Below, one piece after another: positions 31,479-60,675 of a stretch of DNA of 63,152 nucleotides (its first letter is position 1; the number at the start of each line of letters is the position of its first letter). The translations under genes were made by a program, and so were the position numbers. Where the stretch lies: the IMG/VR virus record IMGVR_UViG_3300009506_000026, positions 1 to 63,152 of that record; one strand, given 5' to 3'. The notes beneath the pieces were generated by a model. The model was given only the letters and a program-made list of their open reading frames with translations, was not told where the DNA came from and ran no database searches. Origin of the DNA: a virus.

Positions 31479-31479
31479 T

Positions 31480-34615: not shown

Positions 34616-34626
34616 CTTCGGTTTCC

Positions 34627-38970: not shown

Positions 38971-40096
38971 TGATCATCTCATATTCTTCTAGTAAAGATT
39001 GAATTCCTTGTGATGGGTCACTCGCCGTCAACATGGTGAAAAGTTTTTTCATTTGGGGCAAAACGACCTGCTCTATCCCGAACGATCTTTCATAATACAT
39101 ATACACACTCGTTTTGTCTGAGAAGTCTCGGGATCCAAGTTCTCCTTTAATCACACGGGCTATTTGTCTAAAGTCATCACTGTTATTTATGACTGTGCAA
39201 ACATCGGGGTTGGAAGATATTAAAGGATGGTGTCTATGTGGGAAGGACATAATCACTCGGGTTCCACATCGGAGAGCCTCAAGAGGTCCTCTATCATTTT
39301 GTCCATGTCCCCCTAAAAATAACGCCAACTTGGATTTATTCAAAATCTCACAAACTTCATTTCGGGGAACCATCCCTGTCATTCTAATTCTCAAATCATG
39401 ATCCAAAATATCCTGTAGGATTCCATTTGTAAATGTACCATGAGTTTTTCTGCCCGGGAGAATACAATTAAGCTTTTCCCCATATAACTTTTGGTACTCA
39501 ATCGCCACCTTCACCCCTCTCCATTGAGCCTTCTTGTCATGAATATGTGAACACCCAATACACACATCATAAATCTTAGGGGTCTTGATTGGACGAAAAA
39601 TGTAAGGATTCACTGGCTTTCTAAAATCTAAAAACAATCTGTTGTTCCTTCGGTCATACCAGTCCTTGCCACTTAAATCATCAAACACAATATCCCAAAA
39701 TTTCCACCTTTGTCTTCCCGTATTTGCAGCATATAAAAGTAACCAATGCTTTCCCTTCAATTCATTCAACAGATTAAACCAACTACGAAATCCCCCTCTT
39801 GCCCAAATAATATCTCCCTCCTTCAAAAACTCTCTCAGAACTTCAAAATGAGGGATCACATAACACTGGTGTCCTTCCAACGATGTTTGTCCTGTATTTC
39901 TTCCTGACTCCGCAAAGATCAAAACATCGTCAACGATTGCCTCCTCCTTCATCCTTTTTATTATTTGGAAGTATCCTTCAGTACCAAGACCGGAGTTCTC
40001 TCTTAGATACTCACAATGGGATTTCTTTCGTCTATCCCAAGGTTGATTCACCTCTCCACAACTGCCCCCCATATATATAAAAATCAACCTATTCAT
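38963..40096 (-). CDS. GT-B glycosyltransferase, 377 aa
   Basis: Start at 40096, the ATG that overlaps the sulfotransferase stop. The C-terminal Rossmann domain shows IYDVCIGCSHIH, LNCILPGRK, then a donor-binding helix region (KLALFLGGHGQNDRGPLEALRCGTRVI), with the GPLEAL corresponding to the GT4 EX7E region. Probably transfers from a nucleotide sugar. N-terminal domain diverged. Substrate unknown. Confidence 0.72.
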   Translation of the reverse strand: MNRLIFIYMGGSCGEVNQPWDRRKKSHCEYLRENSGLGTEGYFQIIKRMKEEAIVDDVLIFAESGRNTGQTSLEGHQCYVIPHFEVLREFLKEGDIIWARGGFRSWFNLLNELKGKHWLLLYAANTGRQRWKFWDIVFDDLSGKDWYDRRNNRLFLDFRKPVNPYIFRPIKTPKIYDVCIGCSHIHDKKAQWRGVKVAIEYQKLYGEKLNCILPGRKTHGTFTNGILQDILDHDLRIRMTGMVPRNEVCEILNKSKLALFLGGHGQNDRGPLEALRCGTRVIMSFPHRHHPLISSNPDVCTVINNSDDFRQIARVIKGELGSRDFSDKTSVYMYYERSFGIEQVVLPQMKKLFTMLTASDPSQGIQSLLEEYEMING

Positions 40097-40839
40097 TTCA
40101 TCCACGTATTTTTTATTACTCTTTCTTCTAATTTTCTGTAATCCAACAAAGGTAAAGGCGCTTTTATTCTATTTTTATGATTATAGATTCTACCACAAAT
40201 GAACCGATGGTCTCTTAGTTTTATTTTCTCTGGGTCTCCCAACTCTAAAAAATTAGCAATCCTGTTAAAATTCCCTTTATCCTTTATCATATTCGCTGAA
40301 ATGTAGATCGCCTTCCCACCCCCTCTCTCCACCTCTCTTTTATATTTTCTCATACGATGCTCAATCTCCAAAGTATACCAATAACAAAGCTCGTAAGGAG
40401 TTCTTCTTTTCCAATCACCCAGTCTTGTTACATTCTCAGGGTGAGAAGGCGATATCGCAAATATATTTCCCCTTTCAGTCGTCCCTGGAATTAGATCCAA
40501 TGATAAAAAACTTTTTGCTATCTTCCTTCGATTTCTCTTGATCAATAATAAATCAGGCACATAACCTAAATCCAATAAGGGGTAGAAAAAATACTTACAA
40601 AATCCATGACTCATTTCCATGTAAATTTCTCTCCCCTCTACCAAATTCTCAATGGAGGGAAGTTTCTCTGTCCTTAAAAAGGTTCTGAAATCATCAAAAG
40701 TTTTGTTTTCATGAGAGAAGTGGATAAAAGAGGGGAAGGGCTCGTGGTAGGAAGCGACTTTTCGAAAAAGACCAAAAAGAATAGACAAGAATCTTGTCCC
40801 TGTTCTCCCAGCCGTTACTGTAAAGATCATTCTTTTCAC
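40093..40839 (-). CDS. Sulfotransferase-like protein, 248 aa (GTG start)
   Basis: FTVTAGRTGTRFLSILF is the 5'-phosphosulfate-binding loop (the sulfotransferase version of a P-loop, 7-23); HEPFPS and LLIKRNRRKIAKSFLS (3'-phosphate-binding region, Arg/Ser) follow. Enzymes of this fold transfer sulfate from PAPS to sugars, proteins or lipids. In this setting sulfation of a glycan is likely. Follows a 90-base gap with a long hairpin. Start at GTG 40839 (AAAGGAAAG upstream); an ATG nine bases later is possible. Confidence 0.75.
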   Translation of the reverse strand: MKRMIFTVTAGRTGTRFLSILFGLFRKVASYHEPFPSFIHFSHENKTFDDFRTFLRTEKLPSIENLVEGREIYMEMSHGFCKYFFYPLLDLGYVPDLLLIKRNRRKIAKSFLSLDLIPGTTERGNIFAISPSHPENVTRLGDWKRRTPYELCYWYTLEIEHRMRKYKREVERGGGKAIYISANMIKDKGNFNRIANFLELGDPEKIKLRDHRFICGRIYNHKNRIKAPLPLLDYRKLEERVIKNTWMK

Positions 40840-40857
40840 GGTCTTTCCTTTATTGGG

Positions 40858-40929: not shown

Positions 40930-42195
40930 TTACCAAGCCTGTATTGCCTCCTGCATTACTGGAGCATAATATCTAAAATAAAGTGAATCCATGTTATAGG
41001 TCTGTCGGCAAAATGTCTTTACCTTTAACACCTCACTTTGTCTCAGTCTCGCCACAATTGTATGAGCAATGGCGGCCCAATATTGCTCATTAGGGGGATT
41101 AAAATTTCTATGGAAACTACCAAACTCAAAATACAGAGCCTCGTGATTTGTAATCTCCACTTGGTTATCTAAGGATCTATTTAAAACTAACAAGGTGCCC
41201 GAGGCGGCGGCTTCGGGCACCACTAAACCAAAACTCTCCTCTCTTGTTGGAAAAATGAAAAGATTACTTAATAGAAATAGTTGGGATATCATGTGTTTGG
41301 GAATGCCTACATCATATTTGGGTGACTCAAATTCAGAAGTAAATATAATCTCCTTTCCCACAAACAATCCCTTTTCCTTTGCAATTTGCTTGTACCTATC
41401 AACATCTTCCTTCTGTTGTTTCCCTGTTGCCCATTGACAAGCTACTACTAAACAAATCGAAAAACCCATTGCCTTTAACTCACTAAAGATGGTGATTACT
41501 TCGGCAACCCTTTTAGCCTCAAGTCTATCAACGGAAGCAGGGAGCAATTGCACAATATCCGCTTGCATTACGGAAGGGTTTTGATCTATGAATCGCAGGG
41601 TATCTTCGTGGAAATCAAAGAAGGTTCTTGGATCTTTTATGTGTGGGATTATTCTCACATTATCATCCATCCCCCTGTACTGCTCCGCCACTCTTGTTCT
41701 ATAGGAAGCAGTAGGGAATACCAACTTATGATTTTTTCCATATGTCTGGATGTTCCACCAATCTCTCGCCACGGAGGGCATACTGTGAATCCAATGTAAC
41801 CACCGGGTATCAGGCATTCTTCTACCCACTTCAATGCAGGCTAAACCATAAGGCAAATTCCACCCAGTGAACACAAAATCATGTGTAAAGATGATTTTAA
41901 TCCCCGTTGATTCCAGTTCTTTGCAAAGAGCATTTGCAGTAGTATTAACAAGGAGCTTATGCTCGGCGGACATTTTGTATTGACTTTTGTAATCAACAAG
42001 GTGAGAGAAGGGAATTGATTTGTGCAAGGTTACTTCGGCAGGGAAAGTTTCTCCATTGTACCCCGAATTTACGAATAAGTGAACCTCATGCCCATGCCTG
42101 TTGAGCATCATTACTTGATCCTTCACGATGCCTGTTAGACTGTAGCCGGGCTGAAATTCCATGAACGTGGTTAGAATCGCAACTTTTTCTTTCAT
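40930..42195 (-). CDS. GT4-type glycosyltransferase, 421 aa
   Basis: I chose the ATG at 42195 behind AAGGAGAAAAAA; the ATG at 42210 lacks a clear site. EVHLFVNSGYNGE is the N-terminal Rossmann region; VVACQWATGK, FIFPTREESFGLVVPEAAASG (EX7E) and the later DNQVEITNHEALYFEF give the GT4 C-terminal domain. It is the first gene of the island after the predicted promoter (42266-42238). Sugar unknown. Confidence 0.85.
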   Translation of the reverse strand: MKEKVAILTTFMEFQPGYSLTGIVKDQVMMLNRHGHEVHLFVNSGYNGETFPAEVTLHKSIPFSHLVDYKSQYKMSAEHKLLVNTTANALCKELESTGIKIIFTHDFVFTGWNLPYGLACIEVGRRMPDTRWLHWIHSMPSVARDWWNIQTYGKNHKLVFPTASYRTRVAEQYRGMDDNVRIIPHIKDPRTFFDFHEDTLRFIDQNPSVMQADIVQLLPASVDRLEAKRVAEVITIFSELKAMGFSICLVVACQWATGKQQKEDVDRYKQIAKEKGLFVGKEIIFTSEFESPKYDVGIPKHMISQLFLLSNLFIFPTREESFGLVVPEAAASGTLLVLNRSLDNQVEITNHEALYFEFGSFHRNFNPPNEQYWAAIAHTIVARLRQSEVLKVKTFCRQTYNMDSLYFRYYAPVMQEAIQAW

Positions 42196-42237
42196 TTTTT
42201 TCTCCTTCATTATGATTGAATTCCTAAGTTTATTTTC

Positions 42238-42269: not shown

Positions 42270-45200
42270 TTATGAATAGCCCTGACATTCATACATTGAT
42301 ATTTCGGCGCACCCCGACTGGTAACTTCCTCCTCCCTGAGCTTCCGTGATTCTCCATCTATAATATTCATAATTTATCCCATTCGGAAATATCCAAGACT
42401 TTTCCTCTCCTTGTGCCCACGATAGTCCAGATTGACTATAGACGGTTGATTCCTCTCCTGAAAAATCTCCTGTACTTGAACCCTCCAGTACCCAAGACTT
42501 GGGAGCATACCCTATCGGTAATGGAGCCCATCTAATTACCAACCGCTCAATGTTCTTTGAGGCTGTTAAATGAAGTTTAATCCATGCATCTGCCGTTCCT
42601 ATGGTATCATAGGACATCCAAGCAGTTGTCTGATTGTCATCCGTCGCATTATCATCAATATAGGTGAGATATTCACTGCTGCTGCTAATTGTACTGCCTG
42701 TGGCACAATCCGATCCCCAGTCCGTACAATCCTCTGGTCCATAAAGAGTTGTTGTAGTAGTTGAGGAACAGGTGCTAGTACTCATCGTGGAACTTGTAGT
42801 TGAAAGTGTGGAACTTGTCGAGCTTGTAGTGGACAAAGTGCTGGTGGTTGAAGCTGTGGAACTGGAAGAACTGGTCGAACTCTGTGTAGAAGTGGTAGAC
42901 AAAGTGGAACTGCTAGAGCTTGTTGTAGACAACGTGCTTGTAGTTGAGGCTGTGGAACTGCTAGTAGTCGAACTTGAAGTGGTAGTTGTGGAACTTGTCG
43001 TTGTTGAAGTTGAACTAGTGGTGGACAAAGTGCTGGTTGTCGAAATTGTGGAACTGCTGGAGCTTGTTGTGGAGGCTGTGGAACTGCTGGTCGTAGTTGT
43101 TGAAGTAGTGGAACTTTGTGTTATAGATGTTGTGGTAGTCGAACTGCTTGAACAGGTCGTGGTGGTAGATGTAGTAGTGCTTGTGGTTGTAGAAGGATAC
43201 GTTGTTTCTGTTGTGGTAGTCGAACTGCTTGAACAGGTGGTTGTCGTACTGGAACTGGTCGTTGATAGGGTGCTTGTCGTGGACAAAGTGCTTGTGGTTG
43301 AAATCGTACTTGTGGTGGTAGATGTTGTGGATGTTGTCGTTGCCCCCGTTTCAGTCCAAGACTGATTATATAATTCAATATTAAATAGATACATTGGGTT
43401 GTGGTTACCGAGAGGTGTTGCAAATTCCAAATATTGCAAATCTCCTCTATTAAGCCAATTAAGATCAATCGTCCAATATTGAGTCCATTGAGGTAAAAGT
43501 ACATTGTAAATTACAGGACCAGAAGTGGTTCCTATCGTTAACCACGTATCCGCAGTAGGTGTTTCTAAGGGGTAAAAGGTTAATCTTATCTTTGCAGGTC
43601 TTAAATTATTTGCCCAATTTCCCTTTACCGACAACTTTGATACATGCATATCCCCCAAATGTGCATCTGGGTTATCATTAAATTCCCAATAATCATAATC
43701 ACCGTGCCAGGAAACCGATATGGGAGTTTCGGGTCCAGCTTGAACAGGCTCCCAACGATGATTGTCAAAAAATGAGGACCAGGGTCCTGCATACTCCACG
43801 TGTAGTTCCGCAGCATTGGTGGAATCGTAATTCTCATCCCCTGTCGCTGAATCTACCGTCATTCCCCCCCATTCATCCTCATTTAAAACTACATCTCTAT
43901 CCGATTTTACAATAACAATTAAATTTCCCCCATATCCTGGTCTGTTTATCACCTCCTGCAAAGATTCTGAAAAATCCACAGACCAAAACCATTCATGTTC
44001 ATTGGCACTTCGTATAAAAGACCATTTGGTACTAGCTGAGGTCAAAGGAAGAGCGTTATACTCCGCAATAGAAGTAGGGGCGACAGGATCATCCGCATCC
44101 ACCAAAAAGATTTCGGCAAAGGCGGAGCCCCCCTCAAGAACTGAGGAATAAGAAAAAGCACTTAATTTTAATCTTGAAGAAATAATAAGACTTTCCGGTT
44201 CAATATCTACATTTATGAATCTAAAAAAGGCATCATAATTATGAACAGTACCAGAATCGTTATCAGGACCAAAAATGATATTCCCAGTGGAGTTAAATGT
44301 TAGTTCTGTAATATGTCCATCATTTGCATTTCCTCTAACTTCCCAATAATCACTTGTCGAAGCGATTATCTTCAAAGAGGAGGAAGTCTGCCGACACTCT
44401 ATTTTTGCCCCCCTCGTACTTTGCACTATTCGGGTAACTCTGAACTTAGTGTACTCACTTATACATTGATTCAGTAGATCACGATCAAAGATTTCAAAAG
44501 GGGTAAACTCAAATTGGATAATATCCCCTTTATCAATTTCTGATAAATAGTCCCCACCATCAAATTCACAAATCAATCGAGGTTGTCTGTTTTCTCCAAG
44601 TACCCACCCTGCAAAAGATAGGGCCTGTGATTCCCCAACAACAAAATCTAAATCTATTGGTTCCCCTGTTAATTGACCATAAATATCTTGACTATCTGCA
44701 TCCTCTACCTCTATTACACTTTTTGACTTCTCAAGTTCTGATTTATTTCTTTCGGACCACTCTTTGGCATAGCTAATTAAAAATCGATTTCTAAGTTCGG
44801 AACGCTTGGTAAAACGCGATCTTGCGGTATTAAGAAAAATTCTCCCCTCATTGATCGTCTTATCGGAAGTGGTATTATCTGGGATATACTTTAGATGGTG
44901 CTCACCTAAACTATGGAACCAAGCACTCTTAGCTTGAAAAGCTATATTGGATACTAATTCCAGGACGTTCGGCGCTTCCGTTATAACTACTCCAAGAACA
45001 ATCGCTTCCGCCACGTAATTGGTGTGTGCGGTATTAAAATCAGCATTAAAATTATCTACCGACTCTCCACAATAATTAATCAAAAAATGTTGAATAATTT
45101 TCCCTGGGTATTCCAATAACTGACCCGATATTCCATACCCCCTACTTTGAATATCTGCTGATACTCTACCCCCTAATACTGTGTCCGCCACACTGTTTCC

Positions 45201-46736
45201 CGTTATATCCACAGTGCCAACTTTTGTGACATTCGAGGTTGTTTCTAATGGCTCAGTCTTAAATTCTATCCAAGCCAAAGAAACAAATACATATCCTAAG
45301 GAATTGCTCCCCCCTCTTAATAGGTCTCCTGTTAAATTATTTATTTTATCCCATGTGTCACACAAAGAATTAACATTATACCAATTACTTTTGAAGGTTC
45401 CCGTTGTACTTTCTTGAATATATCTATTAGCCCATGTAAATTTCATGTTGCAGTTGTTATCTATAAATGGAATATGCATACAAAGACGAAATTGAAGGGG
45501 TGTCTTGTCAGGAATCTCATACATTGCCTTACTGAGTTCCACTTCACACCCCGCATTTTTTATTTCCCCCCAATCCGTCAAGTTACCATTAACCAAATTC
45601 TCAGGAAAATTTACCCATCCCCCAGAACTGATTTTTTCAGCTATTTCAAATTCCCAAACTTCATATAAATCCTCGCCATGAGCATGACCCCCATCATTTA
45701 CATCAATGGAATCATCTACCTCTATATTAAACTGCTTTTCTATAGAGGGTTTCGCCGTAAATTTAATTACAGCCATCCCGGGGTAATCCTCATGTTCATC
45801 CCCCGTTTGCCCCGTATAAGCCACAAAGTTAGTAATCTGTCGTACCCATTCACCCGTGGTTCGATTCTCAATATAAATGGCATCAAACGATTTTATTGGG
45901 TGGTCCATAGCGAAAAGATACTCAGTTTGTATTTCCGCTATAGTCGTGCCTGCTTTATGTTCCGCCTGTGTAGTTTCCGCATACCCTCGAGAGCACCCCA
46001 TAAAAGAATTTCCTGAAATGTAGCTATAACTGATTTGTTCAAAATCAAGTTGTATAACTCCCCCTCCAACTGGAAACTTTGAGGTGTCCGTCGATTCAAA
46101 AAATGAAACACTGTCGCTAATATCTGCCACCAATGAGGTTAATGATCCCGAATCTACCCCCAAAAAAGGCATCTTTAAAATTCTACCATAAGCGATGGGG
46201 AATAACTTACCAACATCGTCAGGGTCCGCGCCGGGGTAAGACTCGGAAGTACAAAAGTTTCCCTGAAATTTATTTATTAGGGACACCTCGTTGGAAGTCA
46301 AATAGACCCTAACTCTGTCCACTCCTTCATTCTCAACATCCTCTATTTCTCCCTTAAAAATTAAATCCTTATCCTCAGCAGCCGAAGCCCCCTCAAAAAT
46401 TCGATAAATACTAACGGAGGAATACATAGGAGGAGAGGAACCAAATAACAAAGAAAAATTTCCCAAAGTTCCAATACTTACATTATTTGCCACCACAAAA
46501 CTTGCATTGCCTGGATCAGGGGTGCTTCCATCAAATCTAATGTCTCCTGAATCAAGGTCTCCCCATTCGAGTACTAAAGGTTCATAAATTTGTGAATTAA
46601 AAATAAAAGTAGAAGTACCAAACAATCTGTCACATAGATAATAGGTAGAGGAATCAAGAGTGATTTCGACAAGCCAAATAGGCTCCGTATGAGGAGAATC
46701 GATCTTTGTTTGATTAAAGGAACTTAGAGTTTTCAT
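42270..46736 (-). CDS. Tail-tip/receptor-binding protein with mucin-like linker and C-terminal discoidin-like domain, 1488 aa
   Basis: Residues 1-1130: long beta-rich structural region typical of tail-tip proteins, opening with SFNQTKIDSPHTEPIWLVEI. Residues about 1133-1330 are almost all Ser/Thr with a few Leu, Ile, Cys and Ala (42747-43340 in DNA). The C-terminal domain (about 1331-1488) has CTDWGSDCATG and then a jelly-roll resembling F5/8 type C (TAWMSYDTIGTADAWIKLHL; YYRWRITEA), a carbohydrate-binding fold. Cysteines near its ends may pair. It follows the distal tail gene by a 4-base overlap. A receptor-binding function is likely; the Ser/Thr linker is a candidate for O-glycosylation. 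Confidence 0.72.
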   Translation of the reverse strand: MKTLSSFNQTKIDSPHTEPIWLVEITLDSSTYYLCDRLFGTSTFIFNSQIYEPLVLEWGDLDSGDIRFDGSTPDPGNASFVVANNVSIGTLGNFSLLFGSSPPMYSSVSIYRIFEGASAAEDKDLIFKGEIEDVENEGVDRVRVYLTSNEVSLINKFQGNFCTSESYPGADPDDVGKLFPIAYGRILKMPFLGVDSGSLTSLVADISDSVSFFESTDTSKFPVGGGVIQLDFEQISYSYISGNSFMGCSRGYAETTQAEHKAGTTIAEIQTEYLFAMDHPIKSFDAIYIENRTTGEWVRQITNFVAYTGQTGDEHEDYPGMAVIKFTAKPSIEKQFNIEVDDSIDVNDGGHAHGEDLYEVWEFEIAEKISSGGWVNFPENLVNGNLTDWGEIKNAGCEVELSKAMYEIPDKTPLQFRLCMHIPFIDNNCNMKFTWANRYIQESTTGTFKSNWYNVNSLCDTWDKINNLTGDLLRGGSNSLGYVFVSLAWIEFKTEPLETTSNVTKVGTVDITGNSVADTVLGGRVSADIQSRGYGISGQLLEYPGKIIQHFLINYCGESVDNFNADFNTAHTNYVAEAIVLGVVITEAPNVLELVSNIAFQAKSAWFHSLGEHHLKYIPDNTTSDKTINEGRIFLNTARSRFTKRSELRNRFLISYAKEWSERNKSELEKSKSVIEVEDADSQDIYGQLTGEPIDLDFVVGESQALSFAGWVLGENRQPRLICEFDGGDYLSEIDKGDIIQFEFTPFEIFDRDLLNQCISEYTKFRVTRIVQSTRGAKIECRQTSSSLKIIASTSDYWEVRGNANDGHITELTFNSTGNIIFGPDNDSGTVHNYDAFFRFINVDIEPESLIISSRLKLSAFSYSSVLEGGSAFAEIFLVDADDPVAPTSIAEYNALPLTSASTKWSFIRSANEHEWFWSVDFSESLQEVINRPGYGGNLIVIVKSDRDVVLNEDEWGGMTVDSATGDENYDSTNAAELHVEYAGPWSSFFDNHRWEPVQAGPETPISVSWHGDYDYWEFNDNPDAHLGDMHVSKLSVKGNWANNLRPAKIRLTFYPLETPTADTWLTIGTTSGPVIYNVLLPQWTQYWTIDLNWLNRGDLQYLEFATPLGNHNPMYLFNIELYNQSWTETGATTTSTTSTTTSTISTTSTLSTTSTLSTTSSSTTTTCSSSSTTTTETTYPSTTTSTTTSTTTTCSSSSTTTTSITQSSTTSTTTTSSSTASTTSSSSSTISTTSTLSTTSSTSTTTSSTTTTSSSTTSSSTASTTSTLSTTSSSSSTLSTTSTQSSTSSSSSTASTTSTLSTTSSTSSTLSTTSSTMSTSTCSSTTTTTLYGPEDCTDWGSDCATGSTISSSSEYLTYIDDNATDDNQTTAWMSYDTIGTADAWIKLHLTASKNIERLVIRWAPLPIGYAPKSWVLEGSSTGDFSGEESTVYSQSGLSWAQGEEKSWIFPNGINYEYYRWRITEAQGGGSYQSGCAEISMYECQGYS
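42747..43340 (-). repeat. Ser/Thr-rich low-complexity tract, tail-tip protein
   Basis: About 198 codons of Ser and Thr with a few Cys, Leu, Ile, Glu, Pro and Ala. Synonymous codons (ACA, ACC, ACG, ACT, TCC, AGC, AGT and others) are mixed, so the DNA is a degenerate repeat rather than a simple trinucleotide run. This argues that amino-acid composition is under selection. The segment TTTTCSSSSTTTT occurs twice. Confidence 0.9.
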
Positions 46737-52264: not shown

Positions 52265-52906
52265 TTACGCAGTGGTTGTGGTAGTCGTAGTGGTTGTGGT
52301 AGTTGTGAAGGTCGAGCCGTCATTCCAAACAATTTGTCCCAACGGCTTGTCATCCCAACACGCATTTCCACCACTAATTTCCGAATCAGCCCTTTTAGCC
52401 TCAATTCGAATTGCAACCGCAGCAGGTTCCTCAGGAGCAAAGTCCATCTCAATTGAGGCGGAAACCTGTGCCCTGGGGAAGATAATGTTCATGGTATTGG
52501 TACCATCAGGATAAGTATAAATTGCTTCCATCCTGATATACTCCGCGGATGCCAAAGTACCAAGAGCAATTTTCCCTGTGTGTGCTGCGGAATATGCAGC
52601 ATCAGTGGGATCCAAACCACGAGCAAGCGCCATGTTCTTTGGAGTGATTTCTTTGAAAGCACATTCCAAAGCAGCCTGCTCACGAAGTGGGAAAACAGCA
52701 TCTTCCAACATAGGAAAACCTGATTCCAACTTGAAGAACTCCGTATTACCTACAAAACGAGTGTTTGCAAGTGCTCCAATAGAATCTGTGGAGGACAACC
52801 ATGGAGTTTGTTTTGTCAGATACGTGGCAGAAGCTGCCACTCTGACCTGAGCCAAACCCAATGCTACTGTAGTGGTATCTCTTGTTACAGGACCAGTTCT
52901 TGCCAT
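52265..52906 (-). CDS. Major tail tube protein with poly-Thr C-terminus, 213 aa
   Basis: Position (upstream of chaperones and tape measure) and size fit the tube protein; the body is beta-rich (TRFVGNTEFFKLESGFPMLEDAVF; MNIIFPRAQVSASIEMDF). From residue about 200 the chain is twelve threonines then Ala, ending TTTTTA. The threonine codons are ACA, ACT, ACC and ACG in mixed order, so the tail is not a simple trinucleotide expansion. Two other virion proteins end the same way. The tail could extend from the tube surface as a glycosylation site. Confidence 0.75.
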   Translation of the reverse strand: MARTGPVTRDTTTVALGLAQVRVAASATYLTKQTPWLSSTDSIGALANTRFVGNTEFFKLESGFPMLEDAVFPLREQAALECAFKEITPKNMALARGLDPTDAAYSAAHTGKIALGTLASAEYIRMEAIYTYPDGTNTMNIIFPRAQVSASIEMDFAPEEPAAVAIRIEAKRADSEISGGNACWDDKPLGQIVWNDGSTFTTTTTTTTTTTTA

Positions 52907-52908
52907 AC

Positions 52909-53220
52909 TTACTCACCCCCTTTCTTTTCGTTTGTGCCAGAATAATCTTCTTCCTTGGATTGAATTTTAGGTGGTAGATTAACAGGAAAAAAATTGAACG
53001 TATTCCAATGATCAGGATATTCCAATCTACAAGCCCTTCTAAAACATCTCATTTTTATGGAACCATGAACTAACATCTCTACCATAGGAAACTTCTCCGA
53101 AATAGGGACATCCTCATCTCGGTGACTTCTACCAAATACAAACCTCCAAAGTCCCCCTGGCAGTTTTTCAATCAACCTCTTCCCGCACTTCTCACAATGA
53201 AAAAACATTTTTCCGCTCAT
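52909..53220 (-). CDS. Zinc-finger protein, Com-like, 103 aa
   Basis: MFFHCEKCGKRL and a second cysteine pair (RCFRRAC) suggest a zinc finger. The layout (CxxC, about 40 residues, CxxxxC followed by an aromatic tail) recalls phage Mu Com-like proteins, which regulate translation of the mom DNA-modification gene. Here it lies among tail genes, so a structural or regulatory role is undecided. Confidence 0.5.
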   Translation of the reverse strand: MSGKMFFHCEKCGKRLIEKLPGGLWRFVFGRSHRDEDVPISEKFPMVEMLVHGSIKMRCFRRACRLEYPDHWNTFNFFPVNLPPKIQSKEEDYSGTNEKKGGE

Positions 53221-53678
53221 AGCTTCGATGCCGTCCTTAATCTAACTGAAAGAGTTTTGTATTTGGTGCCATCGGGAGCTAGTAGTTGTCCGGATTCCAA
53301 AACCTCTTGTACCAACAATCCCCCTATTGCTACCCATGCCTGATTCAAATAACTTCTATACAATGTAATACTTTTCATCCCATGAGTTGCATTCTCATCC
53401 GATAGATACCCAAGCACTTTATCTTTTAGCTGTGCCAATCTCCACCCCTCATTGTCCTCCCTGGTACAGCAATGGACATACAGAAAGAAGGTTGACATAG
53501 TAGTGAATTCCATAGCACCAAAATTCACTGATACCCATTGTGTGCTACTAGAGTCAGGCTGTGAAATGCCAATATCAAAAACGGTGGTTATCCCCTCTGT
53601 GGTCTTTAAATTGTCCTTAAAATATTTAATAATGCTATCTCGGACATTGGCTTCTCGGGCAGTAGGATCAAGTGCCAT
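53217..53678 (-). CDS. Tail terminator/completion-like protein, 153 aa
   Basis: Overlaps the zinc-finger gene by 4 bases. TAREANVRDSIIKYFKDNL and TTVFDIGISQPDSSSTQWVSVNFG followed by YVHCCTREDNEGWRLAQLKDKVLGYL is the order seen in tail terminator proteins of siphophages (helix, strand, strand, helix). Position before the tail tube supports this. Moderate confidence because the family diverges quickly. Confidence 0.55.
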   Translation of the reverse strand: MALDPTAREANVRDSIIKYFKDNLKTTEGITTVFDIGISQPDSSSTQWVSVNFGAMEFTTMSTFFLYVHCCTREDNEGWRLAQLKDKVLGYLSDENATHGMKSITLYRSYLNQAWVAIGGLLVQEVLESGQLLAPDGTKYKTLSVRLRTASKL

Positions 53679-53679
53679 T

Positions 53680-53886
53680 TTAAAGTTCCTTAGCCTTCCT
53701 TACGTTTTCACAAATTCCATCCAATCCCTTAAAAAAATCCTCTTTGACGTACTCCACAATTTCCTTATCAATCTTACTTTCATCATACTGGCAGTGATCA
53801 AGGAAGTCGAGAATCATTTCGGCTTGCCTCAAGGACAATTCAAGACCAATAAATGTATCTCTATCCTGCACAAAAATTATTTTCAT
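53680..53886 (-). CDS. Hypothetical protein, 68 aa
   Basis: Small acidic helical protein (MKIIFVQDRDTFIGLEL; ILDFLDHCQYDESKIDKEI). Starts within the stop of the upstream gene (ATGA) and ends 1 base before the tail terminator. In other phages similar small genes lie here with unknown function. Confidence 0.5.
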   Translation of the reverse strand: MKIIFVQDRDTFIGLELSLRQAEMILDFLDHCQYDESKIDKEIVEYVKEDFFKGLDGICENVRKAKEL

Positions 53887-54254
53887 TTTGAAAGAACCTC
53901 ATAAAAAGGATTATCTTTGTCCTTTAAATCCCAAGGATCATTATTAAGTTCCTCAAAAACCAATTTCTTAATATCTTGTCGTTCCTTCGTCCATCTTATT
54001 CTTTTTTTTCTACCTATATACTTTTTCCCAGAATGAAACAGCTCCAATAGTTGCGAGGTCAATAACCAATAAACAAATACATATTTGAGGCGTGTACTTT
54101 CGGGGTCCTTGCTGTCAACCCTTATCCTTATTCCCCTATTCATCTCATGCGACCAAACTCCCCACTCAACATCAAAACGGGACATCTTTTTGTCCATTGC
54201 CTCTTTGAACTTCTCGTCAATAAATTCAATGTACTTCTCTGGGGTCATATCCAT
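53883..54254 (-). CDS. Hypothetical neck/tail protein, 123 aa
   Basis: Start chosen at the ATG at 54254 (TTGGAGCAACA upstream) near the stop of 54245-54808. Helical, basic in the middle (KKYIGRKKRIRWTKERQDIKKL). Unknown family; likely a neck component by location. An ATG at 54248 is also possible. Confidence 0.5.
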   Translation of the reverse strand: MDMTPEKYIEFIDEKFKEAMDKKMSRFDVEWGVWSHEMNRGIRIRVDSKDPESTRLKYVFVYWLLTSQLLELFHSGKKYIGRKKRIRWTKERQDIKKLVFEELNNDPWDLKDKDNPFYEVLSK

Positions 54255-54808
54255 TGTTGCTCCAATCGCTTTAAAGCGGCTTCCGCTTGTCTGATCCAAC
54301 CTGTGTCCGAATACTCGATGCCCGTTGGAATAAACAAGGGTCTTGGTTTTGGGTATGTTCCAAAACCTTCCTCCACCAAGAGTGCATACCAAACAATTAA
54401 CTTCTTAGGTCCATAATCCCCAGCACCGAACCATGATTTTCCCCCACTATCTATTGCAGTGGGATCAACTCCCCCTAAATACCCCTTTGGCATTTTGATA
54501 ATCGTAATCGCATTCAATAGGTCCCTTTTCAGCATCCAAAACTTCATAGGAAACCCATGATCTTTCTTCCAAGATTCATACCTCTCATTATACGTAGGGT
54601 AACTAAATTTCCCCGACACCAAATTCTGCCTAACTAAATTCGTATATTCAAAGGCGCATGTATAGGGAAGTCTGTCCTCTAATATCCTTGCCTCATTCTC
54701 CAATTTATGAGTTGCCACTAACCAACGTCGCAACTGTCCTGGATCTAAAAAGGCCCTCAGCATTGATTCCTCACTGTGCCATTCAATACTTTCATACTTG
54801 TTAAACAT
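54245..54808 (-). CDS. HK97-gp10-like neck/minor tail protein, 187 aa
   Basis: Size, place and pattern (PGQLRRWLVATHKLENEARILED; NLVRQNLVSGKFSYPTYNERYESW; LIVWYALLVEEGFGTY) resemble the HK97 gp10/virion-morphogenesis class that joins head to tail. No catalytic motif. The gene overlaps the preceding 127-residue gene by 52 bases. Confidence 0.5.
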   Translation of the reverse strand: MFNKYESIEWHSEESMLRAFLDPGQLRRWLVATHKLENEARILEDRLPYTCAFEYTNLVRQNLVSGKFSYPTYNERYESWKKDHGFPMKFWMLKRDLLNAITIIKMPKGYLGGVDPTAIDSGGKSWFGAGDYGPKKLIVWYALLVEEGFGTYPKPRPLFIPTGIEYSDTGWIRQAEAALKRLEQQWI

Positions 54809-55140
54809 CCCCCAAATTCATTAGGAGAACCGTCCCCATTTAGGGTTACATACGATTTGAAAAAATAGGGCTTAAATTCAATATACTCTTTTTGTTCCTT
54901 AAACAAAACAATTAGATCATGTTCTATCTGTAAAAAGGAAGGGAAAGCTGAGGAAAGCTCCTCAGGTATTTCCTCCGAGCTTTCGAAAACAGCATACCAT
55001 TTAGTTCCAACATTGTGCCAATTCACTTCCTCATATTTTTTAATTCTGATAATCTCCTTCAAAGACACATACTCCGATATCGATTCAATAATTTTGTTCG
55101 AATCCCCTTTTCCATTTTCCACTATAAATAGAGTTATCAT
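54757..55140 (-). CDS. Hypothetical protein, 127 aa
   Basis: Beta-rich in both halves (MITLFIVENGKGD; HNVGTKWYAVFESSEE; KPYFFKSYVTLNGDG). Starts inside the stop of the 58-residue zinc ribbon gene (ATGA). Likely part of the neck. Family not recognised. Confidence 0.5.
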   Translation of the reverse strand: MITLFIVENGKGDSNKIIESISEYVSLKEIIRIKKYEEVNWHNVGTKWYAVFESSEEIPEELSSAFPSFLQIEHDLIVLFKEQKEYIEFKPYFFKSYVTLNGDGSPNEFGGCLTSMKVLNGTVRNQC

Positions 55141-55313
55141 GTTACTGTCCTTGGATCCACAGATGTTGATTCGCCCTTAGGAAGCCCATTCTTTAAAATA
55201 CCACAATAACCACATTTAGGGCAAACGCAAAGGGTTTCTCCACTTGTATTTTTTTGGTCTTCCACCACAAACTCAGTCTGACAAACAGGACAAATAATAA
55301 TTAGTCCATTCAT
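55137..55313 (-). CDS. Small zinc-ribbon protein, 58 aa
   Basis: ATG 55313, stop at 55139-55137. Starts in the stop of the fiber-tail adaptor gene (ATGA) and ends in the start of the next. The product opens MNGLIIICPVC and continues with LCVCPKCGYCG, giving two Cys pairs for one zinc. Unknown function; the start couples it to the upstream structural gene. Confidence 0.6.
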   Translation of the reverse strand: MNGLIIICPVCQTEFVVEDQKNTSGETLCVCPKCGYCGILKNGLPKGESTSVDPRTVT

Positions 55314-55621
55314 ATTAAATCCTGAACTTTAAAGAAAACCATGTATTCCTTATAATTGTTACCACTACTTTGTACCTTACAAATTACATAGTAACCTTCT
55401 CCGTCGGTTCCATTTTGAACATAGATTCTTACAATTGAACCACTATAGGTACACTTGTTGGAATCTAATATAGTAGTGGAAACATCTACACCGTCTTCGT
55501 CATAGGCTTTAAAAGTTACATCGGAAATAGTTTCTTCGTCTAGCCATGTAGAAATATCAATATCTATATAATATTTTTCCCATGTAGTTTTAGGTTCAGT
55601 TACGGAAAAGCTTTCCCCCAT
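55310..55621 (-). CDS. Fiber-tail adaptor-like protein, 103 aa
   Basis: YYIDIDISTWLDEETISDVTFKAY and SIVRIYVQNGTDGEGYYVICK match the short Ig-like 'phage fiber-tail adaptor' type domains (ISxWLxxETIxxVxF...G.DGxxYxVxC). It directly follows the 729-residue Ser/Thr protein, so together they may form a surface fiber at the neck. Good start behind AAAGGAGATTACA. Confidence 0.65.
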   Translation of the reverse strand: MGESFSVTEPKTTWEKYYIDIDISTWLDEETISDVTFKAYDEDGVDVSTTILDSNKCTYSGSIVRIYVQNGTDGEGYYVICKVQSSGNNYKEYMVFFKVQDLI

Positions 55622-55633
55622 TGTAATCTCCTT

Positions 55634-57823
55634 TCATGCAACAAATCTATTCCTGGCATTCTCCGCAGTAAAAATTGCCCTCGCATTTTCCCCCACAAAT
55701 TCATTTCTATTAGTTTTTCCTTCAAACTCGGTATGTGGTTCTATCGACCAATCCATAGTAACGGTAGTTGTTGTGGTTGAACTACTGGTCGAAGAGGTCG
55801 AGGAACTCGTTGTTGAAGCTGAGGTGCTTGTGGTAGAGGAAGTTGAAGCAAGCTGTGTTACTGTTGTTGTGGTCGTTGAACTACTTGTGGTTGTCGAGGA
55901 AGTTGTTATGGTACTACTCGTCGTTGTGGACAGAGTTGTTGAGGTCGAACTGGACGACGAGGATGAAGTCGAAGTTGAGGAAGTTGTTGTAGTTAAAGTT
56001 GAACTGGATGACGAGGAAGAACTTGAGGATGAGGTTGTTGTGGTCTCACTGGTACTAGTAGAAGTTGAAACAGTTGAACTCGAGGTCGAGGAACCTGTTG
56101 TCGAAGTCGAAGTTGAGGAAGAAGTGCTTGAAGTAGTGGTTGTTGTAGCCGAACTCGAGGTAGTCGTCTCGGTTGAGGAAGTTGAGGTAGATGAAGTTGT
56201 TGTGGTTTCCGTCGTGGACGTACTCGAGGACGTCGAGGTTGAGGTCGTTGAACTAGTAGAAGAACTGGTAGAAGAACTAGTAGAAGAACTGGATGAGGTC
56301 GAACTAGATGAGGTTGTAGTGCTCTGAGTCGTGGCTCCTGGCTCGGTAGTTGAAGTACTTACGGTGGAACTAGTCGTGGTGCTCTGAGTTGTGGTACTTA
56401 TTGTGGAACTTGTCGAACTCAAAGTTGAGGTTGAAGTCTCAGTAGTCGTGGTGCTTGTAGAAGTAGTGGATGAAGTACTTGAACTAGTGGAGGAAGATGT
56501 TGAGGTAGAGGAAGAACTTGTGGTACTTGAAGATGACGAGGTCGTGGTCTCAGTAGTCGTGGTGCTTGTAGAACTCGAGGTGCTGGACGATGTTGTAGAA
56601 GCCGAACTCGAGGTAGTTGATAAAGTAGAAGAGGTTGTAGTGGTTAAAGTGGTAGTAGTTGCAGAGGAGCTTGTAGTTGTTGTAGAGGAAGAGGAGGTCT
56701 CTCCCGGCTCCGTCGTGCTGGTTGTTGTCTCAGTACTGGTTGTGGTTGACGAAGTTCCCGAAGTGCTTGTGGTCGAAGTATGTGAGGTCGAAGTTGTGGA
56801 ACTCGACGTGGTAGACAAAGTTGAGGATGTGGAGGCTGTGGAGCTTGTGGTTGAAAAAGTTGAAGATGTGGTGCTAGTTAGCGTCGAACTAGATGTGGTT
56901 GTGGAAGAGGAGCTTGTGGTTGAACTAGTCGAACTAAAGGAAGTTGAAGTTGTTGTGGTTGAGGTTGATGTTGTCGTACTGGACGTGGACGACGAAGTAG
57001 AGGAGCTTGTGGTTGAAGTTGTCGTACTGGACGTGGACGATGAAGTAGAGGAACTGGTAGTGGACAGAGTGGAGGACGTGGTCGAAAATGAAGAAGTAGT
57101 TGTTGAGGACTGGGTGGTTGTGGAAACCGTTGAACTTGAAGTCGAAAGAGTGGAACTTGTAGTGGACAAAGTTGAGGTTGTGGTTGAGGTGCCCGAAGTT
57201 GATGTTGTCGTACTGGACGTGGACGATGAAGTAGAGGAGCTTGTGGTTGAAACAGAGGTGCTTGAACTAGAGGATGAACTTGTAGTGGTACTACAAGATG
57301 TTGTGCTATACGTTGAACTGGTAGTTGAAGCTGTGGAACTCGAGGTGCTACAAGATGTTGTGGTTGAGGTGGAGGATGAGGTGGTACTAGACGACGAAGT
57401 AGAGGAACTTGTGGTTACTGTTGTAGTTGTGGTTGTAGTGCTGGAAGAACTTGTTTGTGGAGCAGCAACCGTAACATCTACAGGTGTAGTTGTATACTCC
57501 GTTAAATCATCCTCAATTAATTTTATTCTAACTTGAAACGAACCAGTAGTACCATCATTATAAACAGTTAGCTGTTGTTCATCCGTTGTTTGAAGGCCCG
57601 TTATGGGATTGGTTTCGGAGGAAATATTAAGGGCGCCAGAGGAACCAAGACTTGTCCAAGAACCTACTCCTTGGTCCCACTCAAAATACATATCACCCGA
57701 TTCTGCCCAACCACCACTGCCCGAAGTGGTAATCGCACCCCCCATCAAAAAACTGCCACTGGGTTCCAGTTCCGGATCCACCGTGGGGCGGGGCATTGTT
57801 ACGCCGGTGATATTAGTGGACAC
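55634..57823 (-). CDS. Mucin-like Ser/Thr-rich virion protein, 729 aa (GTG start)
   Basis: Residues about 1-120 form a beta-rich globular domain (SGSFLMGGAITTSGSGGWAE; SFQVRIKLIEDDLTEYTTTP). Residues 124-688 are nearly all Ser and Thr with scattered Glu, Gly, Pro, Leu, Val and His. The last 41 residues carry short repeats (NEFVGENARAIF, TAENARNRFVA). The long tract is too simple to fold and resembles eukaryotic mucins, which are densely O-glycosylated. GTG start follows GAGGTAAGAA. Lies between the connectors and the fiber-tail adaptor, so I expect a neck or head fiber. No enzyme motif is present. Confidence 0.75.
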   Translation of the reverse strand: MSTNITGVTMPRPTVDPELEPSGSFLMGGAITTSGSGGWAESGDMYFEWDQGVGSWTSLGSSGALNISSETNPITGLQTTDEQQLTVYNDGTTGSFQVRIKLIEDDLTEYTTTPVDVTVAAPQTSSSSTTTTTTTVTTSSSTSSSSTTSSSTSTTTSCSTSSSTASTTSSTYSTTSCSTTTSSSSSSSTSVSTTSSSTSSSTSSTTTSTSGTSTTTSTLSTTSSTLSTSSSTVSTTTQSSTTTSSFSTTSSTLSTTSSSTSSSTSSTTTSTTSSSTSSSTSSTTTSTSTTTTSTSFSSTSSTTSSSSTTTSSSTLTSTTSSTFSTTSSTASTSSTLSTTSSSTTSTSHTSTTSTSGTSSTTTSTETTTSTTEPGETSSSSTTTTSSSATTTTLTTTTSSTLSTTSSSASTTSSSTSSSTSTTTTETTTSSSSSTTSSSSTSTSSSTSSSTSSTTSTSTTTTETSTSTLSSTSSTISTTTQSTTTSSTVSTSTTEPGATTQSTTTSSSSTSSSSSTSSSTSSSTSSTTSTSTSSSTSTTETTTTSSTSTSSTETTTSSSATTTTTSSTSSSTSTSTTGSSTSSSTVSTSTSTSETTTTSSSSSSSSSSSTLTTTTSSTSTSSSSSSSTSTTLSTTTSSTITTSSTTTSSSTTTTTVTQLASTSSTTSTSASTTSSSTSSTSSSTTTTTVTMDWSIEPHTEFEGKTNRNEFVGENARAIFTAENARNRFVA
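55760..57454 (-). repeat. Mucin-like Ser/Thr tract, 565 codons
   Basis: A run of degenerate 9- to 24-base repeats encoding Ser/Thr with occasional Glu, Gly, Pro, Leu, Val, Ala, Phe, His and Gln. All Thr and most Ser codons occur, in irregular order. The opposite strand is also open and gives Val/Glu-rich polypeptides; those are shadows of this one. Confidence 0.9.
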
Positions 57824-57840
57824 TTCTTACCTCGGACATG

Positions 57841-57858
57841 ACACGGCACCCACCGTGT
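57841..57858 (-). other. Hairpin upstream of the mucin-like gene
   Basis: ACACGG and CCGTGT form a 6-bp stem with a 6-base loop in the 45-base gap between the two structural genes. It lies 10 or more bases upstream of the GTG start and has no T-run. It is possibly an RNA stability or coupling element. Confidence 0.5.
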
Positions 57859-57868
57859 AAGAAAAACT

Positions 57869-58543
57869 CTAAGCTGTGGTTGTGGTGGTAGATGTGGTGG
57901 TGCTTGTAGTAGTGGAAGTAGTCGTCCACTGCCGAGTATCTTCACCCACATCTAAGACATTCATCCCAGAATATCTTCTTTTCTTAATCGTTTCCACCCT
58001 TAGAAACGATCCATCTGAAAGCCTGATTCTATCATTTATTTGAATATCGATAGATTCAGGGAGATACATTTCATGGTTTTCTATCCCAAGAAGACCAATT
58101 TCCTCATCAGTATCCAAACTATTCCCGTATAAGGGGGTAGTCAGTAGAGCATCTACAGAAGAATCGATTAGGGTCCAAATGGTCCTTGATCGATACGAAG
58201 CAGGATCATCTATCTCAGAGGGCCTGAGAATCGAAATAACTTCATTTGTCTTGTAAAGAACGACATCATATTGAATCACGGCATCCTCGAACATTCTTGC
58301 CGTGCGGTTCATCACGTAGAATTTGTCCGAGGTTGTAACAAACTGGATCAGATCACCCCCCACCATTTCAGTATTATAGGCAGCCGCAGCCTCTAAGAAG
58401 AACTCACGTATAAAGGGTTTGGTGACTTGAGCATTTGGCTTGTAAGCCAAATATTCTCCCGTCACATTTCCGGAATCTCGGATAATAATAAAAGAGGTCC
58501 CAACCTCAGGAAGGACCTCGGCTATGTCGGGCCCTATTGTCAA
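57869..58543 (-). CDS. Neck/head-tail protein with Thr/Ser C-terminal tail, 224 aa
   Basis: Beta-rich body (SFIIIRDSGNVTGEYLAY; QFVTTSDKFYVMNRTARMF; SFLRVETIKKRRYSGMNV), then a tail of Thr and Ser from about residue 206, ending STTTTTA. The last six residues are identical to those of the capsid and tube proteins. It overlaps the preceding gene by 4 bases, which is typical of head-tail connectors. Codons in the tail are mixed. A role in the neck is inferred from order. Confidence 0.65.
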   Translation of the reverse strand: MTIGPDIAEVLPEVGTSFIIIRDSGNVTGEYLAYKPNAQVTKPFIREFFLEAAAAYNTEMVGGDLIQFVTTSDKFYVMNRTARMFEDAVIQYDVVLYKTNEVISILRPSEIDDPASYRSRTIWTLIDSSVDALLTTPLYGNSLDTDEEIGLLGIENHEMYLPESIDIQINDRIRLSDGSFLRVETIKKRRYSGMNVLDVGEDTRQWTTTSTTTSTTTSTTTTTA

Positions 58544-59001
58544 CCATCCTCCTCACTGGGATTCATAATCACTTGATTACTATTCAAGTATGTGGTATCA
58601 ATCCCTGTGTGTTCCTGATATTGAAAGCCCGCCGCTATCTGTGTCCCAAACAACTCGTAAGCTTCCACCCCAGCGAATAGATCAGGCCTTTCATCCTTGA
58701 ATTTTTCAAAGTCCCGATCTTCCTGTCTAACCAAAGCCTGATAATGTTCAAATCTCTGTTGAAGTTGAATTCCTTCATACCTAAACTTATGAGCATTTCT
58801 GAGAACCATGTAATGAAATAAATGACGAGTGGCTCTGCGCTTCAACCATTTAATCTGTTCATTATCCGTAACAGGAAAAGACCAACCCGTTTCCCTTTCA
58901 GCCTCATCAAGTGCATCATCCCAATCTGTCCCATCGAATTTGAGAACCATAGCACTCCCAAATTCCCTCTTTAACAAAACCTCCATCTCATCCTGAGTCA
59001 T
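58540..59001 (-). CDS. Head-tail connector-like protein, 153 aa
   Basis: Helical (LLKREFGSAMVLKF; IKWLKRRATRHLFHYMVLRNAHKFRYEGIQLQQRFEHYQAL), which fits the DNA-packaging/connector class (HK97 gp6-like). Located right after the capsid region and before the 57869 gene with 4-base overlap. Assignment is mainly by order and helical content. Confidence 0.55.
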   Translation of the reverse strand: MTQDEMEVLLKREFGSAMVLKFDGTDWDDALDEAERETGWSFPVTDNEQIKWLKRRATRHLFHYMVLRNAHKFRYEGIQLQQRFEHYQALVRQEDRDFEKFKDERPDLFAGVEAYELFGTQIAAGFQYQEHTGIDTTYLNSNQVIMNPSEEDG

Positions 59002-59002
59002 A

Positions 59003-59326
59003 CTACCTCCTGATCAGCTTGGGCTTATCTCTGTTTGTTGGCTCCTTTAAAACGGGTCTTTGAACAACTAAATTCTCCACAAGTGGTTGAACTCCAGGAA
59101 CAATCTTCGATTTCATGTCTGGGGTTTGAAAGGTAGGGGAGAAGTGAATCCCACCTGGGGAAGTCAACTTCTCCCTCCCGTACTCAACAACCTCAATGTT
59201 CGAATTCCCTTCAAAAATATCAGGTAATAGAATGGAAGGAAAGGGACGACGAAGTACCGTCCCTTCTTCCCATACCTGACTCCCAGCCTTAATTGTTCTT
59301 CTCAGTCTGATAGCTTCGATTCTCAT
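59003..59326 (-). CDS. Hypothetical virion-region protein ending KPKLIRR, 107 aa
   Basis: Begins MRIEAIRLRRTIKAGSQVWEEGT, a beta-strand start, then a loop with GGIHFSPTFQTPDMK. Its end, TNRDKPKLIRR, matches the double motif of the protein at 792 and is near the end of the 22967 protein. Possibly a small neck or head protein. Family not known. Confidence 0.55.
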   Translation of the reverse strand: MRIEAIRLRRTIKAGSQVWEEGTVLRRPFPSILLPDIFEGNSNIEVVEYGREKLTSPGGIHFSPTFQTPDMKSKIVPGVQPLVENLVVQRPVLKEPTNRDKPKLIRR

Positions 59327-59346
59327 GATTGTAATCCTCCGCCTAC

Positions 59347-60675
59347 TTAGGCTGTGGTAGTTGTCGTGCTGCTGGACGAAGTTGTAGTGGTTGAGGTCAG
59401 AGTGTCAGTGTAAAGCGACTTGACATCCAACGTGTAGATAGCATCCCTATTTTTGATAATAGGAAGACCTTTATCCTGAACACGAATCCAAACACCTTCA
59501 GGATCCCACTCGTACTTATCGTCCACCTTCTGTCCCCATTGTCGAGGCAAGGAGAAGGGAGCTTCCATGTACTTAGCAATTGGCATTCCATCAACTGTGG
59601 ATGCCATCATCAGGAACTTGTCATTGGGAATGTAATACTCAGGCATGAAGACCTGATCCTCCCCTGCCTTGTAAGACGAAGCAGGAGGATAGGATAGTTG
59701 GATTCTATTGGTTTCCGTCTCCACTGACTTGATATAGCAGTACTCATAGGTTCCTTCAGATACATCCAAGAACCTTACTTTCCCACCAGCCTTAAAATCA
59801 GAAACATCATCCAGTGTTATCCAAGTAGTTGATCCCCCCGTTACCGCTGCAACCAACCAAGCTTTGACCTCATACATTTCATCATAGACGATGAAGTTCG
59901 GGATATTCAAGATTCTTCCCAAGACCTGAACATTCACCCCCACAATTTCATGCAGGTTGCCCCCGTACAAATTCCCAGGGCCACCAGGGCCACCAAAATA
60001 GCTGTTATACAGAAGTTGACGGATAGTGGTATCATTCCCAATGTATTTCAGCACATTACTATTGCACATGGCAACATCGACGACTCCACCACAGTCCTCT
60101 TTGATCTTGGTCTTGCCGTCCTGAATATCACTGAGAATGTTTTTACTTCCACCGTTGTCCCAGTTATAAGCGGAAGCCAAAGTCACACGATGATCGGAGG
60201 GAATACCATAGTCGATAGTAACTTTGTACCCACCTTTCACCGCATAGGAGAAACCATTATTGAAAAGCATTTGGACAAACATCCATTCTTTTCTACGGTC
60301 ACTCCTGTTTTTTAATCCCGCCAGTTCCTCAGCCAATTTTTGCTCCGCAGCATGGTAATCCGCAGTCGTTCCGGGTTTTCGAAGATTGTTAAGGAATTCC
60401 TCATCAAAATACATCTTCTCTTTCCAGAAAGCCGCCGTGGCTGAATGCTGTGCGATTCCATGGGGAGCCGTTACCTGAGCAGGTGCCCCAGGAGCGGCGA
60501 ACGGGGTCATTCCACGCCCTCCCCTTTGGCTTTCCCATTTAATATCGGCAGATGCGGCTTGACTTGCCGTGAACCGATTCATAAAGAACAATTCCGGTGG
60601 AGTCATGAAAGTTCGCATGAAATCTTCCAGGACTTCCAACCTAAGAATAGGAATATCAGCAGTTCCTCTTGGCAT
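59347..60675 (-). CDS. Major capsid protein with Thr/Ser C-terminal tail, 442 aa
   Basis: Position after scaffold and decoration proteins and size fit a major capsid protein. The body includes FMRTFMTPPELFFMNRFTAS, EEFLNNLRKPGTTADYHAAEQ and later GNLYGGNLHEIVGVNVQVLG and the KFLMMASTVDGMPIA segment (similar to phage major capsid proteins of the lambda gpE type). The chain ends TLTSTTTTSSSSTTTTTA. The six final residues are shared with the tube and neck proteins. If displayed on the capsid surface, the tail would give hundreds of Thr/Ser sites per virion. Codons are mixed. Confidence 0.8.
   Translation of the reverse strand: MPRGTADIPILRLEVLEDFMRTFMTPPELFFMNRFTASQAASADIKWESQRGGRGMTPFAAPGAPAQVTAPHGIAQHSATAAFWKEKMYFDEEFLNNLRKPGTTADYHAAEQKLAEELAGLKNRSDRRKEWMFVQMLFNNGFSYAVKGGYKVTIDYGIPSDHRVTLASAYNWDNGGSKNILSDIQDGKTKIKEDCGGVVDVAMCNSNVLKYIGNDTTIRQLLYNSYFGGPGGPGNLYGGNLHEIVGVNVQVLGRILNIPNFIVYDEMYEVKAWLVAAVTGGSTTWITLDDVSDFKAGGKVRFLDVSEGTYEYCYIKSVETETNRIQLSYPPASSYKAGEDQVFMPEYYIPNDKFLMMASTVDGMPIAKYMEAPFSLPRQWGQKVDDKYEWDPEGVWIRVQDKGLPIIKNRDAIYTLDVKSLYTDTLTSTTTTSSSSTTTTTA

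Follow-up and report, generated by a model that had tools for sequence, protein, structure and literature searches.

The window analysed here, the complete 63,152-nucleotide IMG/VR virus record IMGVR_UViG_3300009506_000026, codes for three virion proteins that end in runs of serine and threonine (Ser/Thr): the major capsid protein (MCP), a putative neck protein and a putative tail tube protein. Judging from their sequences, we argue that these C-terminal tails probably serve as mucin-like substrates on which phage-encoded enzymes would build the predicted O-linked glycans of the virion. The tails exist, are kept as protein, occur on all three proteins or on none, accompany a specific cassette of glycosyltransferase (GT) genes, and are found with it also in phages with unrelated heads.

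Three tailed proteins in the window and its relatives

The late genes of the window are on the minus strand and run from the head genes (about 62.5 kb) through the tail genes (to about 42 kb) and on into a cassette whose genes code for modifying enzymes (42.2 to 28.9 kb). As originally predicted, the open reading frames (ORFs) of the three proteins were found on this strand, and their translations carry Ser/Thr runs that close in TTTTTA. The MCP (59347..60675, 442 amino acids) ends in ...DTLTSTTTTSSSSTTTTTA, with its tail TSTTTTSSSSTTTTTA at 59350..59397; its identity is firm by its PHROG profile (phrog_29, major head protein, E 1.4e-42) and agrees with its relatives. The putative neck or adaptor protein (57869..58543, 224 amino acids) ends in ...DTRQWTTTSTTTSTTTSTTTTTA, with the tail TTTSTTTSTTTSTTTTTA at 57872..57925, and the putative tail tube protein (52265..52906, 213 amino acids) ends in ...GSTFTTTTTTTTTTTTA, with the tail TTTTTTTTTTTTA at 52268..52306. 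The names of these two rest on gene order and relatives because the former has a weak match to a PHROG family of unknown function (phrog_37035, E 4e-4) and the latter has no match in PHROG or Pfam. Homologues of the neck protein are present in 22/22 contigs compared, and the tail tube protein has 36 relatives.

The original prediction held that the three endings match as protein and do not stem from a copied DNA segment, and both the codons and a test against synonymous shuffles bear this out. TTTTTA is coded by ACT ACC ACA ACC ACT GCG in the tail tube gene, by ACC ACC ACA ACC ACA GCT in the neck gene and, unlike either, by ACG ACA ACT ACC ACA GCC in the MCP gene. With the tails removed, the three proteins have no meaningful mutual similarity (best blastp E 0.18). 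Measured by the longest common substring, two tails from one genome do not exceed synonymous shuffles in DNA similarity in 105/108 pairs. Copying of one DNA segment is thus rejected as a general cause, only 3/108 pairs (in G068, G079 and G082) having p<0.05; there may have been an old copying of DNA whose silent sites have since become saturated. Among the close relatives L005, L006, L009 and L015, the 18 codons of the MCP tail show 2-12 synonymous and 0 amino-acid differences in 6/6 pairs, and the neck tails of close relatives swap Thr and Ser and change in length while keeping their Ser/Thr character. Since the residues of the MCP tail stay constant while the codons diverge, this tail is kept at the protein level; in the others it is the Ser/Thr character that is kept.

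Scans of viral contigs gave uncultured relatives of the window at 43 loci with the MCP and at 36 loci with the tail tube protein. The contigs of this study were picked via MCP, tail tube or a GT family described below (GT4), are mutually related and partly fragments, and their counts are not a random sample. In tailed contigs the complete MCP, neck and tail tube ORFs all bear Ser/Thr tails, and in tailless ones none does. A well supported branch splits the MCP tree of 66 rows (made without L044, L045, L080, L001, L019, L007, L026 and rows with <300 matched residues) into 33 tailed rows on one side and 33 tailless rows on the other, so that the tailed clade represents one gain of tails, or one loss, with no reversals seen on this tree. 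Tail length varies widely, from 13 to 30 or more Ser/Thr residues. The tails are far above chance: the 828 genes in 13 tailed contigs of the clade include 48 with a tail, 28 exactly TTTTTA, and 0/938 called genes of 11 tailless relatives has a Ser/Thr tail or TTTTTA.

Could the tails be unmodified disordered spacers, or the product of simple-repeat drift by slippage of ACN codons, with no common enzyme? The length changes between close relatives fit such an origin, as does a 15-nt direct repeat in the tail of the window's tail tube gene, which means that local slippage within one gene, in a tract of Thr codons, does occur. However, the MCP tail keeps its exact residues while its codons diverge. 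Moreover, the tails sit on specific virion proteins, all or none, together with a GT family; the genes of tailless relatives are free of them; and within a genome, the tails of nearly all pairs resemble each other in DNA no more than synonymous shuffles do. We consider spacers or drift quite improbable, and prefer the reading that the tails are substrates for glycosylation.

Among cultured relatives, the MCP of the window has only partial matches of 25-29%, in 7 phage records. The tail tube protein and the GT4 enzyme have no match among cultured-phage records, and one of the other GTs (30747) matches one uncultured record. As a side observation, an MCP 53% identical to that of the window is found in L154 (DYLN01000029.1), within a metagenome-assembled genome titled Melioribacter roseus, the match ending before the position of the tail. 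This tailless relative gives a faint hint at the host of the wider group, too little to name one.

Glycosyltransferase families that accompany the tails

When the gene families of 11 tailed contigs were compared, without preselection, with those of 11 tailless ones, five GT families, named here by their start in the window, occurred in tailed contigs and in 0/11 tailless ones: 40930, the GT4 family (7/11 tailed contigs), 30747+35328 and 34627 (6/11 each), and 28918 and 38963 (5/11 each). They are 5 of the 11 tail-enriched families listed in this unbiased table. Their identification as GTs comes from Pfam for 28918 and 40930, and from the predicted fold for 30747 and 34627, both of which have no Pfam match and model as GT-A enzymes; for 38963 and for gene 29863, no GT profile matched. 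It is specific GT families, and not generic GT profiles, that separate tailed from tailless phages.

As the tail change in the clade is one event, we used the GT4 family as bait for further phages. Single-sequence scans with the neck protein and with GT4 were unproductive; a GT4 alignment worked better as query, and the search of viral contigs gave 182 relatives, of which 80 were kept. Among 50 GT4 contigs searched with an MCP profile, 3 had the clade MCP, 6 a distant MCP and 41 none detected. Tailed proteins are carried by 17 of the 20 non-clade GT4 contigs, some of which are fragments (G042p in this survey covers just 18 kb of its contig, with GT4 outside that part), and these proteins are not homologues of the tailed proteins of the window. 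They include lambda-D-like decoration proteins in four contigs whose MCP is untailed (Pfam HDPD, E 4e-19, 1e-12, 7e-20 and 1e-7), the head-tail adaptor Ad1 (E 8e-17 and 2e-16), the major tail protein (E 3.5e-29 and 4e-31), and also a tail tube and a tail assembly protein; in one phage type a capsid protein has a short terminal Thr run. Protein D is exposed on the outside of the particle. An outside position of the tails agrees with their place on D where a protein D was recognised, namely in these four contigs, and on the MCP in the window clade.

The association also holds by position. Within 10 kb on either side of GT4 outside the clade, tails were found at 26/68 loci versus 2/41 control loci (p 7.5e-5), the 68 being the 80 GT4 loci minus 12 taken as clade members (membership of L230 is presumed). 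In 17/28 contigs the GT4 gene sits 19-4053 nt downstream of a gene with a Ser/Thr tail or tract, on the same strand.

The GT cassette could instead add sugars to hypermodified bases of the phage DNA, or to the surface of the host, the tails being something else that shares only ancestry with it. Passages of PMC12619734 describe DNA and host-surface modification as known roles of phage GTs. Genes of the window at 6240-12934 resemble, by eye, those of a 7-deazaguanine pathway (QueD, QueE, FolE, QueC-like and DpdA-like), which suggests modified guanine in the phage DNA, and 28918 has a weak GtrB-like PHROG match (E 0.0045). However, the 7-deazaguanine genes are unlinked to GT4 (QueD in 6/28 GT4-positive versus 3/11 tailless contigs), and GT4 accompanies tails in phages with unrelated heads, often just downstream of the tailed genes, which makes this alternative unlikely. 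A tie between GTs and base-modification genes, considered for the 7-deazaguanine type only, was rejected, Que/FolE/DpdA-like genes being found in 2-6/28 GT4-positive versus 1-4/11 tailless contigs.

Several observations weigh against our reading that these GTs act on the tails. With a single tail change on the MCP tree, the comparison of 11 tailed and 11 tailless contigs amounts to one event. GTs in general were rejected as a marker of tails, since Pfam GT2 and GT1 are also found in tailless relatives, and GT2 is as common in controls (3/28 versus 5/41 control contigs). GT4 is missing from the available sequence of four tailed clade contigs; three are fragments of 36-44 kb, and in G030 (80 kb) 28918 and 30747 are the only GT families of the set that remain. 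Outside the clade, 3/20 contigs (G066, G067 and G074) have GT4 and no tail. In the reverse test, GT4 was present in 4/28 Thr-tailed contigs found by a DNA pattern versus 0/41 controls (p 0.02), 11/80 pattern loci having been classed as weak and excluded from the onward search; as few of these contigs hold GT4, and most are short, other tail systems probably exist.

Tail endings

TTTTTA had been suggested to look like a tag common to the three proteins, to be recognised by one modifying enzyme, protease or assembly factor. As a universal tag it is ruled out: among close relatives Ala is the commonest ending, and AP, SP, GP, V, I, T, S and GS are also found, while in L005, L013 and L024 the MCP, neck and tail tube proteins of one phage end unlike each other. 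With endings varying among relatives, what is conserved in the clade, as the search of related phages revealed, is the Ser/Thr tail and not the string TTTTTA.

Although the specific string is lost, agreement within genomes lends weight to the importance of the very end. When endings were sorted into classes (Ala, Pro, Val-like and Ser/Thr) in 25 genomes with at least two tails, 61/108 within-genome pairs shared a class versus 31.1 expected: 25/37 versus 8.9 outside the clade (p 0.0001) and 36/71 versus 27.5 inside it (p 0.02). With the shuffle kept within each protein family the agreement was 33/62 versus 20.6 expected (p 0.0004); kinship is not fully corrected in these tests, from which G060 was dropped as a near-copy of G052. 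A tree-based test of joint change used 22 rows; 16 loci had been removed as duplicates or near-duplicates, along with any row in which the neck and tail tube proteins were not both complete. Here, neck and tail tube both changed to a Pro end in 3/3 independent pairs (p 0.25), and for the Ala end no link between the two proteins was found. The shared ending is a real trend, specific to each genome and not universal, from which kinship is not yet fully separated.

Such agreement within a genome, which persists in the stratified test, would suit tails that mark the proteins for cleavage by a protease or for an assembly factor. The cassette in fact codes for a ClpP-like protein (33878-34615) whose start resembles that of a lipoprotein. 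Its gene, however, is in 1/11 tailed contigs, that one being the window itself, alone among the 22 contigs compared; tail lengths vary widely; and the endings differ among the three proteins in the three relatives above. On balance we found no sign that either kind of factor reads the tails, and we hold this explanation to be very improbable. The part of the common-tag idea that gains is the shared modifying enzyme, as the tails travel with the GT cassette.

We tentatively extend the glycosylation reading, with more doubt than confidence, to a transferable coating system shared by phages with unrelated heads. It would consist of a GT cassette and mucin-like tails arisen on whichever surface protein is at hand (MCP, D, adaptor, tail tube or tip), and the exact C-terminal end could be a genome-specific recognition code, read by an enzyme that starts modification there.

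Other kinds of endings were also seen. In the viral contigs L325, L329, L371, L379 and L384, large proteins end in TTTTTT(T) followed by I, V or L, which is possibly another type of tail. The tailless L025-L037 have look-alike short ends across proteins, with ..AFDLDEY on the MCP and ..GEVYDD-type ends on the neck protein, and the tailless L072-L074 have SGSP-like ends on several proteins.

The enzyme cassette, further tracts and known systems

The cassette that adjoins the tail genes (28918-42210, all on the minus strand) opens with the GT4-type enzyme (40930..42210; Pfam Glycos_transf_1, E 7e-7), the marker family of tailed phages, whose gene is separated by 60 nt from the tail-tip gene upstream of it. 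It is followed by a protein that looks by eye like a sulfotransferase (40093..40839; no Pfam or PHROG match, and absent from the other contigs of the 22 compared), a putative GT-B enzyme recognised by eye from an EALRCG motif (38963..40105; no Pfam match at 0.001), a PIG-L-type de-N-acetylase (37766..38431; Pfam PIG-L, E 6e-17), a hexapeptide acyltransferase-like protein (36954..37778; Pfam Hexapep, E 6.5e-8) and a radical SAM/SPASM enzyme (36056..36997; Pfam Radical_SAM, E 6e-15, and SPASM, E 2.8e-8). Further downstream are a GT-A-type protein (35328..36059), which by blastp and alignment is the second member of the 30747 family, and a predicted GT-A enzyme (34627..35331), whose model has a predicted local distance difference test score (pLDDT) of 72 and matches WrtF, TarP and ppGalNAc-T2 in the PDB. 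Beyond these are an S-adenosylmethionine methyltransferase (31480..32091; Pfam Methyltransf_23, E 8e-8; in 5/11 tailed and 3/11 tailless contigs), a predicted GT-A enzyme (30747..31520) modelled with a pLDDT of 90.6 and matching GnT-I (E 2.4e-10), POMGnT1 (E 8e-10) and ppGalNAc-T in the PDB, and a GT2 enzyme (28918..29859; Pfam Glycos_transf_2, E 3e-13).

Three, the number of tailed proteins in the original prediction, turns out to be an undercount, as tails or tracts are also found on tip, fibre and decoration proteins, among others. In the window, a protein of 729 amino acids that is mostly Ser/Thr (55634..57823, minus strand; no Pfam match) has an N-terminus that looks immunoglobulin-like by eye, followed by a mucin-like Ser/Thr tract of ~560 residues (about 57454-55763). 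A tail-tip-like protein of 1488 amino acids (42270..46736, minus strand) has a Ser/Thr tract of ~190 residues (about 43340-42747) before its C-terminal domain, and in the comparison of 11 tailed with 11 tailless contigs it was seen in tailed relatives only. Additional tailed proteins in single relative contigs are tip, fibre-like and other proteins.

We propose that the tails would act as flexible mucin-like acceptor arms, and that the GTs coded downstream of the tail genes may add O-linked sugars to many Ser/Thr residues of each tail. The de-N-acetylase, the acyltransferase, the methyltransferase and the possible sulfotransferase could then trim or decorate the glycan. Since the tails are on repeated surface subunits (capsid or decoration, neck or adaptor, tail tube and tip), the particle as a whole would be covered by a dense coat of glycans, whose purpose may be masking from host or environmental binding or from proteolysis, or else adhesion.

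Virion glycosylation has so far been found documented in a few mycobacteriophages, and the present phages would represent a wider, apparently undescribed version among uncultured environmental phages, with the Ser/Thr tails and the GT4/GT-A set as sequence markers. No description of such tails was found in the open-access papers searched, most subscription papers being outside the search. These markers make it possible to ask which phages coat themselves with sugars, whether the tails can be moved as tags for glycosylation and whether the enzyme is directed by the end residue. If the proposal is true, portable tags for O-glycosylation, together with the GTs dedicated to them, would also be of use in the laboratory.

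In Mycobacterium phages, glycans are reported at the C-termini of the capsid and tail tube proteins, according to passages of PMC12619734 and, for the capsid, PMC11256854. Virion glycosylation of the Che8 type is the work of Freeman et al. 2023, as cited in parts of PMC12619734, PMC11256854 and PMC12691614. An Acinetobacter phage paper (PMC8402811) was set aside as a parallel, its relevant passages concerning host glycans. The window resembles Che8 in having clustered phage-encoded GTs (gp108-110 in Che8), and the C-termini of MCP and tail tube, where glycan sites are reported for the mycobacteriophages, are candidate acceptor residues here. In contrast, the capsid, adaptor and major tail proteins of Che8 end in NKTGS, TIHRL and YSDGS, with no Ser/Thr tail. 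Gp108-110 gave no hidden Markov model match at E<=10 with three window GT families, and the best blastp match to the seven GT-type proteins of the window has E 0.051 over 9 residues. As Che8 has neither Ser/Thr tails nor homologous GTs, the likeness of the window system to that of Che8 would lie in how it works. Compared with Che8, the tails described here are multi-site, they occur in addition on neck, decoration and tip proteins, and they come with a larger set of enzymes.

In mucin-type O-glycosylation, dense Ser/Thr tracts serve as acceptors. The tails of the window differ from mucins in that they are phage-encoded, C-terminal and almost pure Thr/Ser with few prolines. The likeness lies in the dense Ser/Thr tracts themselves and in the GT-A models, which resemble ppGalNAc-T and POMGnT1.

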